A stretch of 64,000 bases of DNA, taken from assembly GCA_947311485.1 (NCBI GenBank), contig CAMZLM010000007.1, positions 1 to 64,000 on the forward strand, read 5' to 3'. Source of the stretch: an uncultured Paracoccaceae bacterium. GTDB lineage: Bacteria; Pseudomonadota; Alphaproteobacteria; Rhodobacterales; Rhodobacteraceae. Position 1 is the first letter of the stretch. Every line of letters begins with the position of its first letter. The translations under genes were made by a program, and so were the position numbers. The notes below the pieces were generated by a model. It did not search any database. It saw only the letters and a list, made by a program, of their open reading frames with translations, and was not told where the DNA came from. Positions 5,594 to 17,513 of this stretch are shown here, piece by piece.

Positions 5594-5866
5594 GAGATTT
5601 CCTGTCAAGATTACTTTGGATAGGGTGGTCAAGGCTGTGCAATTTGGCAAGTATATTTGCGAATGCCTCTATTTTGCAGTGAGGTATACTTTAGGTAGAG
5701 AAAATACGATGATATGCAACAGTAAGACTTTACGTATGCAAAACGGCATGGTAATCCTGTGATTGAATTGATACGTTTTGAATCTATTTTGATGCAGTTG
5801 ATTGTGTTGGGTGGGGGCGGCGTATGGAATTTGCAATTTAAGAATGAATAAGTAGTGGAGACTTAC
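5594..5866. other. AT-rich divergent intergenic region
   Basis: 273 bp between the leftward aminotransferase and the rightward OmpA-like gene. It is visibly richer in A and T than the genes around it and should hold both promoters. I see no convincing -35/-10 pair or operator. The only short ORF (ATG at 5710, 17 codons) has no ribosome-binding site. Confidence 0.4.
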
Positions 5867-6406
5867 ATGAAAAAAGCAACATTGAACGTCCTGAGAGGCG
5901 CAATTTTTGCTGTCGCTTTTTTGCCGGCGGCATCAGCATTTGCTGAAACCGTAGCTGTGGTGAACTTTGCAACAGCGCGTCACGATCTGAGCGCGCAGGC
6001 GCGCGCCACGTTGGCTGAATTTGTCAAGAAAAATGGCAAACAGTGCATTAATTTGACCGGGCACACCGACACACGCGGTAGCCTGTCTTACAATCAGGCG
6101 CTTTCGGAGCGTCGTGTGCGGTCTGTTGCTAATTATTTGAAGTCTCTGGATTTTAAGCATGATGTTACGGCGGCGAATGCTCTTGGCGAGACCCATTTGG
6201 CCGTTGCCAAAGAAGGCGATGTTGTTGCAAACCGCCGCGTAGAATTGCGCTCTTATAAATGTGGCGCGGCCGCGTTTCCGGCCGGCGCTGTGCCAGCCTG
6301 GCTGGCGGCGGTTCCGCTTGTTTGTCTGGCCGGGGCTTGTGACTTCTCGTCCTCTTCTTCCACGTCGACAACAACCACAACCACAACGACAACCACCAGT
6401 AACTAG
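5867..6406 (+). CDS. OmpA-like domain protein with Ser/Thr tail
   Basis: 179 residues: a signal peptide (about 1-27, ending SAFAE), a compact OmpA_C-like domain (about 28-130) with the peptidoglycan-binding motif TGHTDTRGS at 64-72 and ANRRVEL at 121-127, a short hydrophobic stretch (about 141-158, VPAWLAAVPLVCLAGAC), and a tail of five Ser followed by Thr repeats. The likely place is the periplasm or outer membrane. The ATG at 5867 has GGAG 7 nt upstream. The GTG used by the track lies within that spacing. A terminator follows, then the YjbH gene. A Ser/Thr homopolymer after a hydrophobic segment is unusual and could be a glycosylation or surface-tethering region (inference). Confidence 0.85.
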   Translation: MKKATLNVLRGAIFAVAFLPAASAFAETVAVVNFATARHDLSAQARATLAEFVKKNGKQCINLTGHTDTRGSLSYNQALSERRVRSVANYLKSLDFKHDVTAANALGETHLAVAKEGDVVANRRVELRSYKCGAAAFPAGAVPAWLAAVPLVCLAGACDFSSSSSTSTTTTTTTTTTSN

Positions 6407-6551: not shown

Positions 6552-8639
6552 ATGAAACCCACTAAACTTCGTGTCTTTTTTTCCGCTTGCGCCTGTGTTT
6601 CGGCGCTTTTTCCGGGACAGGGTTTCGCCCAGTCCAAACCGTCGCTGAATATGTTCGGCAACCCCGGTTTGATCGATATGCCCAGTGCAGAAGCCAATCC
6701 GGATGCAGAACTGAGCCTGTCGGTTTCCCATTTCGGCAAGGCAACCCGCACCGCTCTGAGCTTTCAGATCAGCCCGCGTATTTCCGGCACGTTTCGGTAT
6801 TCACGGATCGGGAACTGGTTTATCGGAGACCAGACTTTTGACCGGAGCTTCGATGTACGCTTCTTGCTGTTGAAAGAACGGAAATATCTTCCTGCTGTGG
6901 CGCTTGGCCTGCGTGATTTTATGGGAACCGGACTGTATTCTTCGCAATATCTGGTTGCGACCAAGAACTTGGGTGACAATTTTAAAGTTACCGCAGGGCT
7001 TGGGTGGGGGCGTTTGTCCGGCACCAGCCAGTTTCAACCATTGAACTTTGGTCAGGGCGGAAAGCCCAATTACAAAGAATGGTTTCGCGGTGATATCGGC
7101 GTTTTCGGCGGGCTGGAATGGAAAACCCCGATCGACGGCTTGCGGGTAAAGATTGAATACAGCCCGGATCAATATGTCTGGGAAAACCGGATTTTTCAAA
7201 ACCGGACAGTGAAAACCTTTGATCGTAAATCATCGGTCAATTTTGGCTTCTCCTACATCACCAAACGAAATTTGCAGATTAGTGGCTATTACATGTACGG
7301 CACAGAGGTCGGCCTGTCGTTTTCCACCTCGCTCAATCCCAAACGCAAGCGGCAGTTGCTGCGGGCAACGCCGGAACAGCGCAATCTGGCCATTCGCCAG
7401 CGCCCCCAAGGGTTTACCACAGCCGCCTTTGACGGGGATTTCGACAAGCTCACCACCCAGAGCTATACCGAGCGCCTGCAAAAGGCCCTGGGCAAGAAAA
7501 CGGTGCAGGTGATCTATTCCAAATACAACGGCAATTCCGCCGAGGTGCGGATTCGCAATGCCAAGTTTGATCGCCCCGGGCAGGCCGCCGAACACACCAT
7601 GCGCGCGATGACGCAGGTTCTGCCTGACGGGATCGAGAATTTTTCCGTGGTGTTGATGGAAAATGATTTGCCGATTTCAACCGTTCACGCCAAACGCGCC
7701 GACATAGAGGCCTTGGGCCGTGGCGAGGGGGCTGCCAGCTTTGGTCAGCTGGTGGCGGTTGATGCTGGTAAAAAGGCAACCGGCGACGGGTTTTATACGC
7801 AAGGTCTGTTCCCGAAATTCACGTCTTATCTGCGGCCGTTCCTGAAACCGCATTTGTTTGATCCGGACGATCCGGTTCGCGCCGATTTCCGGATTGGCTG
7901 GAATTCCGTGTACGATATCACCCCCGGCCTGTCGATTTCATCGGAACTGTCGGCCAAGGTGGTGGGCAATCTGGACAATAACAGGCGCGGCTCCAATTCT
8001 GTGTTGCTGCATGTGCGCACCGATCTGGACAAATACCAAAGCAATGGTGCCTTTACTATTGATCGCCTGACGATTGATTACCTGACCAAGCTGTCGCCAT
8101 CGGTCTATGCCCGCGTCAGCGCCGGTATTTTTGAACAGATGTACGGGGGCGTTTCTGCCGAGGTTCTGTGGAAACCCGTCAACAGCCGCCTTGCCTTTGG
8201 GGCAGAGGTGAACTGGGTCAAGAAACGCGACTATGACCAACGGCTGAGCTTTAGGAATTTCTCGACTGTGACGGGCCATGTGTCTGCCTATTGGGACATG
8301 GGCAACAGCTATTACGGCCAAGTCGATGTGGGGCGTTATCTGGCGCATGACCTCGGGGCGACGTTTACCTTTGAGCGGCGTTTTGACAACGGTTGGCGGA
8401 TCGGGGCGTTTGCGACCTTTACCAATGTTTCTTTTGCCGATTTTGGCGAAGGGTCGTTTGACAAAGGTATCAATGTCACCATTCCGTTTTCCTGGCTTGC
8501 CGGACAACCCACACGGCGGCGGCATACTTTGGTTATCCGGTCTATTACCCGTGATGGCGGGGCGCGTGTGGATATTCCAAACCGTCTCTACGGGATTGTT
8601 TCGGATGCGGGACGCAAACAGATCGTTAATTCCTGGTAA
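6552..8639 (+). CDS. YjbH-family exopolysaccharide outer-membrane protein
   Basis: 695 residues with a signal peptide (cleavage likely after GQGFA, about residue 26). The mature start NMFGNPGLIDMPSAEANPDAELSLSV is characteristic of YjbH (PF06082), the outer-membrane component of the yjbEFGH exopolysaccharide locus of E. coli. The long aromatic-rich, beta-strand-like mature part fits a large outer-membrane barrel, with a central soluble insert (about 270-410). Normally yjbE, yjbF and yjbG neighbours accompany it. Here none is present, only the OmpA-like gene upstream, so the role in polysaccharide export rests on family membership. A weak GAGCGG precedes the ATG. Confidence 0.85.
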   Translation: MKPTKLRVFFSACACVSALFPGQGFAQSKPSLNMFGNPGLIDMPSAEANPDAELSLSVSHFGKATRTALSFQISPRISGTFRYSRIGNWFIGDQTFDRSFDVRFLLLKERKYLPAVALGLRDFMGTGLYSSQYLVATKNLGDNFKVTAGLGWGRLSGTSQFQPLNFGQGGKPNYKEWFRGDIGVFGGLEWKTPIDGLRVKIEYSPDQYVWENRIFQNRTVKTFDRKSSVNFGFSYITKRNLQISGYYMYGTEVGLSFSTSLNPKRKRQLLRATPEQRNLAIRQRPQGFTTAAFDGDFDKLTTQSYTERLQKALGKKTVQVIYSKYNGNSAEVRIRNAKFDRPGQAAEHTMRAMTQVLPDGIENFSVVLMENDLPISTVHAKRADIEALGRGEGAASFGQLVAVDAGKKATGDGFYTQGLFPKFTSYLRPFLKPHLFDPDDPVRADFRIGWNSVYDITPGLSISSELSAKVVGNLDNNRRGSNSVLLHVRTDLDKYQSNGAFTIDRLTIDYLTKLSPSVYARVSAGIFEQMYGGVSAEVLWKPVNSRLAFGAEVNWVKKRDYDQRLSFRNFSTVTGHVSAYWDMGNSYYGQVDVGRYLAHDLGATFTFERRFDNGWRIGAFATFTNVSFADFGEGSFDKGINVTIPFSWLAGQPTRRRHTLVIRSITRDGGARVDIPNRLYGIVSDAGRKQIVNSW

Positions 8640-8684
8640 CCCGGTAACGCGCTTGTAAAAACCCGCTTGTGTTAAGGGGGAAAA

Positions 8685-8747
8685 GTGCGTTACATCAACG
8701 GCATGAAAACCTGCACCATCATTTGCTGCATTTGTATTCCCTGCTAA
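8685..8747 (+). CDS. Putative cysteine-rich leader peptide of cysS
   Basis: A 20-codon ORF starts at GTG 8685, 4 nt after a strong AAGGGGG ribosome-binding site, and ends at TAA 8745-8747. Its last eleven residues are CTIICCICIPC, with five cysteines (four TGC, one TGT). An in-frame ATG at 8703 would give a 14-residue form but has no good ribosome-binding site. The ORF lies 80 bp before the cysteinyl-tRNA synthetase gene and is followed by inverted repeats. This is the arrangement of a ribosome-mediated attenuator that senses charged tRNA-Cys. Function is inferred. It is too short for the ORF track. Confidence 0.6.
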   Translation: MRYINGMKTCTIICCICIPC

Positions 8748-8754
8748 CATCGCT

Positions 8755-8825
8755 GCGCGGGCCGGTTTTTCATTTCCAGAATAAAATGTGACAGGCCCGC
8801 GTCGGGACAAACGACCGCGAGACGC
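8755..8825 (+). promoter_or_regulatory. Overlapping inverted repeats before cysS (candidate attenuator)
   Basis: CGCGGGCC (8756-8763) pairs with GGCCCGCG (8794-8801) around a 30-nt loop that carries GGTTTTTC and a small CATTT/AAATG hairpin. A second pair, GCGTC (8799-8803) with GACGC (8821-8825), shares bases with the first and covers the cysS translation start region. The two pairings exclude each other. The 5' arm of the first begins 8 nt after the leader stop codon, within reach of a ribosome stalled on the last Cys codons. Which form turns cysS on cannot be decided by eye. Confidence 0.4.
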
Positions 8826-8827
8826 CT

Positions 8828-10201
8828 ATGACCGAGATCAAGCTCTATAACACCAAGACCCGCAGCAAGCAGGTTTTTACCCCGATTGATGCACGGAACG
8901 TGCGGATGTATGTCTGTGGGCCAACGGTTTATGACCGCGCCCATATCGGCAACGCGCGGCCTGTGATTGTGTTTGATACGCTGTATCGGTTGCTGCGCCA
9001 TGAATATGGTGTTGAACATGTTAAATACGCCCGGAATTTCACCGATGTAGACGATAAAATCAACGCCCGCGCCGCCGAAACCGGCCGTGACATCCGCGAC
9101 ATCACCGATGAAACCATCCAGTGGTTTCTGGACGATATGGGTGCGCTTGGGGCGCTGGAACCGGATTTTGCGCCGCGGGCCACCGAGTATATCGACCAGA
9201 TGGTCGCCATGACGCAGGAATTGATCGACCTGGGCCATGCCTATGCGGCGGAGGGCCACGTGCTGTTTGCGGTGGAAAGCTATGACAAATACGGCATCCT
9301 GTCGGGGCGGTCTGTGGATGATATGATTGCCGGTTCGCGGGTCGAGGTCGCCCCCTATAAACGCAATCCGATGGATTTTGTGCTGTGGAAACCGTCGGAT
9401 GAAAAGACGCCGGGCTGGGAAAGCCCATGGGGGCGGGGGCGTCCGGGCTGGCATATTGAATGTTCGGCCATGTCGCGGGAATTGTTTGGCGATCGTTTCG
9501 ATATTCATGGCGGAGGGCTGGATCTGGCGTTTCCGCACCACGAAAACGAACGCGCCCAGAGCTGTGCTTGCTGTGGCGAGAATAGCTATGCCCAGGTCTG
9601 GATGCATAACGAAATGTTGCAGGTCGAGGGCAAGAAAATGTCCAAATCGCTGGGTAATTTTTTCAGCGTGCGCGAATTGCTGGATCGCGGAATACCCGGA
9701 GAAGTAATCCGCTTTGTCTATCTGTCCACGCATTACCGCAAGCCGATGGACTGGACCGATAAAAAGGCGGCGGAGGCCGAAGCGACGTTACGCAAGTGGC
9801 GGGCGCTGACGGCGGGTATCGAACCCGCCGCCAACGCGGCCTCTGCGGTTGTTGCGTGTTTGGCGGATGATCTGAATACGGCCGGCGCGATTGCGGCGTT
9901 GCATGATCTGGCGCGGGCAGGCGACGGGGCGGGGCTAAAGGCCTCTGCGGCGCTTTTGGGGCTGCTGGGGGATGATCTGGGCGGCTGGGATGTGGTTGCT
10001 GCTGCCGGTGACGGCGTATCCGCGCGTATCGAGGCATTGCTGGCCGATCGGGCGGCGGCGCGGGGGGCCAAGGACTGGGCGCGCGCGGATCAGCTGCGCG
10101 ACGGTTTCGCCGCTGCCGGTGTGGCGGTCAAGGACACGGCTGACGGGGCCGTGTGGGAGCTGCTGCCGGAATTTGACGCGACCAAACTGGAGGGTTTGTG
10201 A
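8828..10201 (+). CDS. cysS: Cysteinyl-tRNA synthetase
   Basis: Charges tRNA-Cys. It is a class I synthetase of 457 residues with the HIGN motif (AHIGNARP, 38-45) and KMSKS (270-274). The zinc site is complete: Cys30, Cys212, His237 and Glu241, equivalent to the E. coli ligands. The C-terminal DALR-like tRNA-binding helices follow. No strong ribosome-binding site is seen directly before the ATG, only GCGAGACGCCT, which lies in a potential hairpin. Translation may therefore be controlled by the upstream leader. The stop overlaps the start of cimA (TGATG), so the two genes are translationally coupled. Confidence 0.97.
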
Positions 10202-11826
10202 TGGGCAAGGAACGGCTCTATCTGTTTGATACCACGTTGCGCGATGGCCAACAGACCCACGGGGTGGATTTCACCGCAGATGACAAAACCCGTATCGCAC
10301 TGGCGCTGGATGCGTTGGGGATTGATTATGTCGAAGGCGGCTGGCCCGGGGCCAACCCCACCGACAGCGATTTTTTCGAGGCCCCGCCCGTGTTGGAACA
10401 TGCGACGCTGACGGCATTTGGCATGACCAAACGGGCCGGTCGATCGGCGCAAAACGACGAGGTTCTGGCAGGGGTCATGAATGCACATACGCCGGCTGTG
10501 TGTCTGGTAGGGAAATCTTATGATTTTCATGTGACAACGGCACTGGGAATCACATTGGAGGAGAACCTCGCCAATATTTCGCAAAGCGTCGCCCATATTG
10601 TGGCCGCGGGGCGCGAGGCGCTTTATGATGCGGAACATTTTTTTGACGGGTTCGCGGCGAACCCCGATTATGCGCTGGCCTGTGCGCGGGCGGCCTATGA
10701 CGCGGGGGCGCGGTGGGTGGTGTTGTGTGACACCAATGGCGGGGCCTTGCCGGCACAGGTGGCCGCGGCCACGCGCGCGGTAATTGCAGCGGGGATTCCG
10801 GAGGATCATATCGGAATCCACACGCATAACGATACGGAACATGCGGTGGCCAATTCGCTGGCGGCGGTGGAGGCCGGCGCGCGGCAGGTTCAGGGAACGC
10901 TGAATGGACTGGGCGAGCGCTGCGGGAATGCCAATATGGTGACTTTGATTGCGACTTTGCTGTTAAAACAACCCTTTGCAGGGCGTTTTGAAACCGGAGT
11001 CGGCCTTGAAAAATTGCCGCAATTGACCCGGATTAGCCGGATGCTGGATGATATCCTGAACCGGGTGCCAAATAAATTTGCCGCCTATGTGGGGTCCTCG
11101 GCCTTTACCCACAAGGCCGGATTGCACGCCAGCGCGATTTTGAAGGATCCGACGACATATGAACATATCGTGCCGGAAACCGTGGGCAATACCCGCCATA
11201 TTCCGATGTCCAATCAGGCGGGGCTGTCCAACCTGCGCAAACGGCTGGCGGATGCGGGGCTGGAGGTAGCCAAGGATGACGCGCGGCTGGGGGAAATCCT
11301 GCAGGCGGTCAAACAGCATGAGGACAGGGGCTATGCTTTTGACGGGGCGCAGGCGTCGTTTGAATTGCTGGCGCGGCGTATTCTGGGGCAGTTGCCGCAG
11401 TTTTTCGAGGTAAAGCGCTATCGTGTGATCGTGGAACGGCGCAAGAACCGGTATGATAAAATGGTATCGGTATCCGAGGCCGTCGTCGTGGTGAAAATCG
11501 GCAAGGACAAGGTTTTGTCCGTGTCCGAAAGCATGGATGACAGCGGGTGTGACCGTGGGCCGGTGAACGCGCTGTTTCGGGCGTTGGGCAAGGATCTCGG
11601 TCCTTTTCAACCCTATATTGATGATCTGCGGCTGGTGGATTTCAAGGTGCGGATCACCCAAGGCGGCACCGATGCGGTAACGCGGGTGATTATCGACAGC
11701 GCAGACGGGCAGGGGCAGCAGTGGTCCACTGTTGGCGTGTCAGCCAACATCGTTGACGCCAGTTTCGAGGCGCTGCTGGATGCGATAAACTGGAAGCTCA
11801 TACGGGATGGGGCGAGAATTACATAA
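10201..11826 (+). CDS. cimA: (R)-citramalate synthase
   Basis: Condenses pyruvate and acetyl-CoA to citramalate, the entry of the threonine-independent isoleucine route. The 541 residues follow the TIGR00977 type: a TIM-barrel HMGL-like domain with DTTLRDGQQ at 10-18 and the metal-binding HTHND near 205-209, a linker, and a C-terminal LeuA-type regulatory domain (about 400-535), the usual site of end-product feedback. An isopropylmalate synthase is less likely, because the sequence GQQTHGVDF after the first motif is typical of the citramalate group. The ATG overlaps the cysS stop by one base. Confidence 0.92.
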   Translation: MGKERLYLFDTTLRDGQQTHGVDFTADDKTRIALALDALGIDYVEGGWPGANPTDSDFFEAPPVLEHATLTAFGMTKRAGRSAQNDEVLAGVMNAHTPAVCLVGKSYDFHVTTALGITLEENLANISQSVAHIVAAGREALYDAEHFFDGFAANPDYALACARAAYDAGARWVVLCDTNGGALPAQVAAATRAVIAAGIPEDHIGIHTHNDTEHAVANSLAAVEAGARQVQGTLNGLGERCGNANMVTLIATLLLKQPFAGRFETGVGLEKLPQLTRISRMLDDILNRVPNKFAAYVGSSAFTHKAGLHASAILKDPTTYEHIVPETVGNTRHIPMSNQAGLSNLRKRLADAGLEVAKDDARLGEILQAVKQHEDRGYAFDGAQASFELLARRILGQLPQFFEVKRYRVIVERRKNRYDKMVSVSEAVVVVKIGKDKVLSVSESMDDSGCDRGPVNALFRALGKDLGPFQPYIDDLRLVDFKVRITQGGTDAVTRVIIDSADGQGQQWSTVGVSANIVDASFEALLDAINWKLIRDGARIT

Positions 11827-16064: not shown

Positions 16065-17513
16065 ATGTTTGATATTCGACCCGCAGCTTATGTAATTGGA
16101 ATGTTGGTGGCCGTGCTGGGCGCGACCATGGTTGTTCCTATGTTTATGGATGTTTACGACGGGAACGGCCATTGGCAGGTGTTTGCCTTGTCAGCCTTGC
16201 TGACCTGTTCGACCGGCGGCTCGATTGCGCTGGCCTGTGCGAATGCGACCTCCCGGGGGTTAACCATTCAACAGACGTTTTTGCTGACCACGGCGGTATG
16301 GGCGGTTTTGCCGGTTTTTGCCGCTTTGCCGTTGATGTTCGGGGCCACCCAAAGCACGGTTGTGGATGGTTTTTTCGAGGCGCTCTCGGCCCTGACGACA
16401 ACAGGGGCGACGGTTTTGTCCGGTCTGGATGATTTGCCGCGCGGGTTGTTGTTGTGGCGGTCCATGTTGCAGTGGTTCGGCGGGGTAGGGATTATTGTTG
16501 TGGGAATGGTTTTCCTGCCGGAACTGCGGGTTGGGGGCATGCAGATATTCAGGACGGAAGCTTTTGATACCAGAGGAAAAATTCTGCCCAAAGCCGCCGA
16601 AATAGCCAAGTCGATTGCGAATATCTATGTGGGGCTGACGTTGATGTGTCTGGTGGCCTTTCTGGCGGTCGGGATGCCTGTTTTTGATGCGATCAACCAT
16701 GCGCTGACGACGCTGTCCACCGGCGGGTTTTCCACACATGACGCGTCTTTCGGGGCCTTTAGCGGTACGCCGGAATATGTGGCTTCCTTGTTTATGATTC
16801 TGGCGAGCCTGCCGTTTGTGCGGTTTGTGCAAATGGTGGCTGGGTCATCGCGGCCTTTGTTCCACGATCAGCAGGTACGGGGGTTTATGAAGGTCACGAT
16901 CGTGTTGATTGTCGCCCTTACGTTGCACCGGTTTTTCGTGGCGGGGGAACATTTCGAAGTGTCCCTGCGGGAGGCGGTTTTTAACGTGACCTCGATTCTC
17001 AGCGGCACAGGGTTTGCCAGTGCGGATTATCAATTGTGGGGCAGCTTTTCGGTTACGCTGTTTTTCTTTATGGGGTTGATCGGGGGCTGTGCGGGGTCAA
17101 CCTGTTGTTCGGTCAAGATTTTCCGCTTTCAGCTGTTGTTTGCCTCGATCAAGACCCAGATTCGCAAGATCCACTATCCGCACGGGGTGTTTACCCCGCA
17201 ATACGAAGGCCGCCCCGTACCAGAGGAGGTCATGTCCTCGGTGATGGCATTTTTTGTGATGTTTCTGGTGATCCTCGGGGTTCTTTCCGGTTTGCTGGGG
17301 CTGACGGGGCTGGATTTTGTCACATCGGTTTCCGGTGCGGCAACGGCGTTGGCCAATATCGGGCCGGGGCTGGGGGATGAAATCGGGCCGGCGGGAAATT
17401 TTGCCAATATCAACGACACAGCGAAATGGTTGTTGATGGCGGGCATGTTGATTGGCCGACTAGAGGTCATGACCGTGCTGGTCCTGTTTTCGATTAACTT
17501 CTGGAGAGGCTGA
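16065..17513 (+). CDS. trkH: TrkH-family potassium uptake protein
   Basis: 482 residues of a K+ channel-like transporter subunit in the inner membrane, with repeated membrane-pore-membrane units. The four filter segments are recognisable: TTTGATVLSG, TLSTGGFSTHD, ILSGTGFASAD and ALANIGPGLGD. The start MFDIRPAAYVIG at 16065 is the usual N-terminus. The track start adds 12 residues. It normally works with the cytoplasmic regulator TrkA, which is not encoded in this window. Two bases after the stop begins the truncated TPP-enzyme fragment. Confidence 0.93.
   Translation: MFDIRPAAYVIGMLVAVLGATMVVPMFMDVYDGNGHWQVFALSALLTCSTGGSIALACANATSRGLTIQQTFLLTTAVWAVLPVFAALPLMFGATQSTVVDGFFEALSALTTTGATVLSGLDDLPRGLLLWRSMLQWFGGVGIIVVGMVFLPELRVGGMQIFRTEAFDTRGKILPKAAEIAKSIANIYVGLTLMCLVAFLAVGMPVFDAINHALTTLSTGGFSTHDASFGAFSGTPEYVASLFMILASLPFVRFVQMVAGSSRPLFHDQQVRGFMKVTIVLIVALTLHRFFVAGEHFEVSLREAVFNVTSILSGTGFASADYQLWGSFSVTLFFFMGLIGGCAGSTCCSVKIFRFQLLFASIKTQIRKIHYPHGVFTPQYEGRPVPEEVMSSVMAFFVMFLVILGVLSGLLGLTGLDFVTSVSGAATALANIGPGLGDEIGPAGNFANINDTAKWLLMAGMLIGRLEVMTVLVLFSINFWRG

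Follow-up and report, generated by a model that had tools for sequence, protein, structure and literature searches.

In the 64,000-nt stretch of DNA from an uncultured Paracoccaceae bacterium analyzed here (the window), the cysteinyl-tRNA synthetase gene cysS is preceded by a short cysteine-codon ORF (uORF) and a set of hairpins. This arrangement, a case of the uORFC-8-2 motif, quite probably controls the cysS-cimA unit by ribosome-mediated transcription attenuation. The attenuation reading of cysS is well supported by comparative evidence and has already been published; from the same sequence comparison, a probable leaderless start of the uORF, the occurrence of the element in other orders and a possible sensing of isoleucine are new here.

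The leader uORF and its genomic context

A plus-strand ORF at positions 8685 to 8747 translates to VRYINGMKTCTIICCICIPC* and contains five Cys residues, with its end 80 nt upstream of the cysS ATG (8828). The first-pass annotation had reported a Cys-dense short ORF 80 bp upstream of cysS, and its coordinates agree with ours. It had also assigned a 20-codon frame starting at GTG 8685. In the closest relative (L026, with a cysS 96% identical), this GTG is replaced by GCG while ATG 8703 is retained, and sequence comparison places the conserved start of the relatives at this internal ATG, giving peptides of 13 to 14 amino acids. Judged by this comparison, the GTG is the wrong start, and the true conserved leader is the plus-strand uORF at 8703–8747, which consists of 14 codons (MKTCTIICCICIPC) and a TAA stop codon and whose ATG, Cys codons and length are kept across relatives.

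A promoter was predicted on the plus strand at 8666 to 8696, with a −35 element CTTGTG (8666 to 8671) and a −10 region TTACAT, the TA of which lies at 8691 to 8692. Its register relative to the ATG is fixed in 54 unique loci (CTTG at −37 to −34, TA at −12/−11 and a pyrimidine, C or T, at −1). The identical register was found with CTTGAC in 29 Hyphomicrobiales-type uORFs, 93% of which carry C at −1. The predicted transcription start is most likely the A of ATG 8703. Since the spacing between promoter and ATG does not vary among 54 relatives, the uORF is probably leaderless and devoid of a Shine-Dalgarno sequence. The AAGGGGG motif, which had been taken for a strong ribosome-binding site, falls instead into the spacer between the −35 and −10 elements. 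An E. coli-type consensus promoter scan did not report the leader promoter at 8666 to 8696, and an Rfam search of positions 8400 to 9100 (E ≤ 5) matched no family.

The regulated gene, cysS, occupies 8828 to 10201 on the plus strand (TIGR00435, 451 bits against a cut-off of 340) and is followed on the same strand by cimA (10201 to 11826; TIGR00977, 577 bits against a cut-off of 450), which encodes citramalate synthase of an isoleucine precursor route. The cysS stop codon and the cimA start codon overlap in TGATG (10199 to 10203), as had been annotated before. The gene preceding the leader (6552 to 8639) encodes a YjbH/YbjH exopolysaccharide biosynthesis protein (PF06082), and it is itself preceded by a gene for an OmpA-family protein with a Ser/Thr-rich C-terminal tail (5855 to 6406).

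Conservation in Rhodobacterales and occurrence in other orders

A covariance model (R1) built from 42 Rhodobacterales sequences matched 132 of 150 Rhodobacterales genomes, with one match per genome, and found no match in the other 18. In the genome from which the window comes, no site other than that at 8703 matched convincingly. At the model-found loci examined, the element was located directly before cysS, save for three sub-threshold matches in that genome and two weak ones outside the order, which were obtained from 241 genomes of the class; neither of these two lies at cysS, and both were discarded as spurious. By name, the relatives include Roseovarius, Sulfitobacter and Marivivens. All 67 unique Rhodobacterales uORFs contain Cys, encoded by TGC (195 codons) far more often than by TGT (25 codons), and 55 of them contain a tandem Cys pair (CC), which begins at codon 8 to 10 in 53 cases; the uORF of the window has TGC TGC at codons 8 and 9. 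The number and spacing of the Cys residues vary, with one to five per peptide arranged as CC, CIC or single C. Together with the covarying alternative hairpins described below, these 67 uORFs and the 132 matched genomes provide strong comparative support for the ribosome-mediated attenuation of cysS that the first-pass annotation had proposed, and regulation of cysS by the leader is predicted on this comparative basis.

The same annotation had named related genomes with cysS but no Cys-rich ORF as evidence against its reading. Such relatives exist: the low-GC members of the window's genus L011, L014, L015 and L016 have cysS without a Cys uORF, L006 has only a remnant, and the 18 unmatched genomes belong here as well. 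These absences are scattered, however, and, as far as the sequences tell, do not overturn the overall pattern of conservation.

The same layout was detected at cysS of Rhizobium, Ensifer, Mesorhizobium, Bradyrhizobium, Devosia, Bosea, Phyllobacterium and Stappia. These loci have in common a CTTGAC promoter in an unchanged register, an AUG, a short Cys-containing peptide, a hairpin that spans the stop codon, and a U-rich tract that pairs with the AUG region. A second model (R2), built from 11 such cysS loci, matched at least 32 of 150 Hyphomicrobiales genomes under strict filters. Across the class, the same filters left only two genomes, both of one small third order, a low yield that is probably due to the few genomes drawn per family. 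Every R2 locus examined sits before cysS. By these sequence criteria, the architecture exceeds its published range and is present in Hyphomicrobiales as well as in the small third order. In the third order, the cysS leader of L148 (G280, 1501 to 1554) reads MKTAATIWCICCTIIIS, and the sequence 5′ of it resembles, by eye, the terminal part of a gene for glutamyl-tRNA synthetase. Other Cys-rich short ORFs, outside this family, were seen before cysS in two alphaproteobacterial metagenome-assembled genomes, at −139 to −55 in L072 (MTHQSCSCKKCDCHGNCGKNCACGCCK) and at −153 to −60 in L091 (MTMRPTTCCRTSCCLPGGCAATCACCPSTV).

Alternative RNA hairpins

Three helices around the uORF have comparative support. 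H1 joins the 5′ end of the predicted transcript (AUGAAAACC, 8703 to 8711), including the AUG region, to a 3′ arm within the U-rich tract (GGUUUUUCAU, 8764 to 8773), with one U bulged. Its own arms pair more stably than arms swapped between species (−7.2 versus −4.3 kcal/mol in a thinned set of 22; 0 of 2000 shuffles), control segments being flat in this swap test; relatedness inflates such shuffle tests, an effect against which the thinned set and the flat controls offer partial protection. For the Hyphomicrobiales set, the corresponding values were −13.5 (own) and −10.1 (swapped). H2 (8740 to 8761) is a terminator-like hairpin that spans the last codons and the stop codon and pairs CCUGC (8740 to 8744) with GCGGG (8757 to 8761). 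In the alignment, 86.5% of its cells are paired, with 21 double-change cells compared to 6.9 ± 2.2 in shuffled alignments (0 of 500). The 10 nt past its 3′ arm contain on average 5.6 U residues (42 relatives), other bases break up the U tract in most species, and a consensus terminator scan called no plus-strand terminator at the leader.

H3 (8756 to 8801) pairs CGCGGGCC (8756 to 8763) with GGCCCGCG (8794 to 8801); 84.5% of its cells are paired, with 20 double-change cells compared to 11.0 ± 2.4 after shuffling (0 of 500), and its outermost pair changes from CG to GC among relatives. Both H2 and H3 also exceed slid controls. Since GCGGG is common to H2 and H3, the two hairpins are mutually exclusive. 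The 3′ arm of H3 is placed downstream of H2 and the U tract, and the distance from its end to the cysS ATG is 27 nt.

Constrained folding of the free RNA gave a mean pairing of 0.62 for H2 and 0.80 for H1, and both values were 0.30 with a ribosome placed at the second Cys codon; in a longer RNA, H3 reached 0.74. For the window's own sequence, a modelled stall at codon 9 removed H1 and left H2 at 0.61. With a ribosome placed on the stop codon, H2 pairing fell to 0.0.

The sequence of the H3 loop, GTTCTTTATTTTCA...AAAGTGATA, is kept in the low-GC loci L014, L015 and L016 (about 35 to 70 nt before cysS) and also in L006 and L011, where the Cys uORF is lost or degraded. Some feature of the loop seems to matter even without the leader. 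We considered whether the loop (TTTC...GTGATA/TTGCTA) might be a second promoter and rejected this candidate; its spacing varies and is shorter in the window, L003, L004 and L026.

Proposed mechanism and alternative explanations

In the mechanism that we derive from these comparisons, from the leaderless start through stalling and termination to the direction in which cysS is regulated and the part played by H3, transcription would begin at the AUG of the 14-codon uORF or within a nucleotide or two of it. When Cys-tRNA is plentiful, the uORF would be translated and the ribosomes would depart, after which H2 could fold over the stop codon while H1 joins the 5′ end to the U-rich tract; with both formed, RNA polymerase would halt in this tract. 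A ribosome at the stop codon would block H2 too, and release must therefore be quick. When charged tRNA-Cys is scarce, the ribosome would stall on the Cys codons, and its footprint would cover the stretch between the 5′ arms of H1 and H2 and impede both helices, so that the polymerase could read through into cysS and cimA. Full coverage of the H2 arm in the window would require a stall at codon 11 or 14. H3 would then fold in the read-through RNA; as it is made only past the U tract, it comes too late for the part of a classical antiterminator.

The mutually exclusive and individually supported hairpins H2 and H3, together with the missing call of a textbook terminator, might also point to translational control, in which alternative hairpins mask or expose the cysS start. 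We consider this unlikely, since no supported pairing was found that involves the cysS start region, H3 stops short of the cysS ATG, and H2 is followed by a U-rich tract. A different possibility is that the peptide itself, with up to five Cys in 14 residues, is a metal- or redox-sensing small protein like the Cys-containing copper leader peptides. It is very improbable: relatives retain Cys codons and the position of these codons with respect to the hairpin, while Cys number and spacing vary, and the gene context is cysS throughout. Finally, a functionless Cys-rich ORF could arise by chance, and the window does contain another ORF of this type at 16429 to 16488 (MICRAGCCCGGPCCSGSAG), which appears to be accidental. 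Five or more Cys per 11 residues were found in 2 of the 796 short ORFs of the window, and simulated 64-kb windows (Markov model) contained on average 0.25 such ORFs, corresponding to about 0.0004 in any 200 nt of a single strand, in line with the first-pass view that this density next to cysS is hardly accidental. A chance origin, already refuted by the conservation of the element across Rhodobacterales and by the covarying structure (H1, H2 and H3), can be practically dismissed, and ribosome-mediated attenuation is the reading that we retain.

Possible isoleucine sensing

The first-pass annotation had suggested that cysteine supply would also control cimA, and this point may be extended to the Ile codons of the uORF. 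As a refinement of the attenuation reading, the leader could be a dual-signal attenuator that senses Cys-tRNA for cysS and Ile-tRNA for cimA, an option that we take seriously but do not favor. Ile is the commonest residue of the leader peptides, at 31% in 65 Rhodobacterales peptides and 29 to 30% in the Hyphomicrobiales-type set, compared to a background of 5.3% in the long ORFs of the window and 7.2% when the nucleotides of these uORFs are shuffled; choosing peptide sets by score may bias their composition, but the Hyphomicrobiales-type set, located by the model alone, gave equal figures. Leu (1.8%) and Val (0.3%) are both depleted; therefore, the Ile excess does not reflect general hydrophobicity, and among the branched-chain amino acids it is Ile that CimA serves. 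Moreover, ATT and ATC freely replace one another at positions −2 (26/19) and −1 (24/22) from CC. In each of the 19 Rhodobacterales loci that carry the leader and have sufficient flanking sequence, cimA is next to cysS, and in all four rhizobial regions examined it is found downstream of cysS on the strand of that gene. On the other hand, ATT is nearly fixed at +2 from CC, and AUY may have been kept for nucleotide reasons in an unstructured, pyrimidine-rich stretch. The cysS-cimA neighborhood is also present in alphaproteobacteria without the leader, the two genes are separated by 2.4 to 3.1 kb in rhizobia, and stalls at Ile codons 6 and 7 would fall short of the H2 arm.

In E. coli, the thrL leader contains in one uORF the codons of Thr and Ile, two metabolically linked amino acids, and dual sensing is established for it. 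The cysS leader resembles thrL in having codons of two amino acids; it differs in bacteria, genes and sequence, and dual sensing is only proposed here. The literature search yielded no paper on leader attenuation of citramalate synthase among the matches listed. More tentative still is the generalization that a leaderless Cys and Ile attenuator family might control the cysS-cimA neighborhood in at least three orders of Alphaproteobacteria and thus couple tRNA-Cys charging to isoleucine synthesis by the citramalate route.

Relation to known attenuators

The first-pass annotation had named no described cysS case in this bacterial group; the uORFC-8-2 motif, published as a computational one, is exactly such a case. 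The available excerpt of its description (Brewer et al. 2021, RNA Biol., PMC8632094) reports 145 examples, exclusively upstream of cysS in Rhodobacterales, and proposes ribosome-mediated attenuation. According to this excerpt, the motif shares with the leader of the window its position before cysS in Rhodobacterales and an AUG uORF with tandem Cys codons, mostly UGC. It is described with two stems, the first of which holds the Cys codons, and a 3′ U run, matching H1, which encloses the Cys codons, the nested H2 and the U-rich 3′ arm. The excerpt gives positions 14 and 15 as the usual place of the Cys pair, whereas in 53 of our 55 cases it begins at codon 8 to 10 of a 13- to 14-residue peptide, a mismatch that possibly results from different counting of positions. 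The promoter register and leaderless start, H3, the Hyphomicrobiales members, the Ile codons and cimA go beyond the excerpted account. The literature search found no other paper naming uORFC-8-2, no experimental test of its switch and no papers on cysS attenuators in Sinorhizobium.

The trp attenuator rnTrpL/peTrpL of Sinorhizobium meliloti (PMC10117765, PMC7298713) has an experimentally proven leaderless 14-aa uORF that starts at the AUG. It is likewise an alphaproteobacterial attenuator with a 14-aa uORF, the leaderless start being only predicted for the cysS leader; it differs in its Trp codons, in its target trpE and in the demonstrated action of RNA and peptide in trans. Cys-codon leaders have also been reported for actinobacterial cys operons and cbs (Seliverstov et al. 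2005, PMC1262725). These, too, are short ORFs in which Cys codons form runs close to the stop codon, located before cysteine-related genes, but they precede biosynthetic operons and not cysS, lack a conserved terminator hairpin and belong to another phylum.

The corrected start codon and the predicted transcript start make the switch testable, and the arms of H1, H2 and H3 as well as the Cys versus Ile codons are pointed out as informative sites for mutation. With the range extended to rhizobia, laboratory models are at hand. The analysis also raises the question of whether a single 14-codon ORF may monitor two amino acids on behalf of two genes that follow it.
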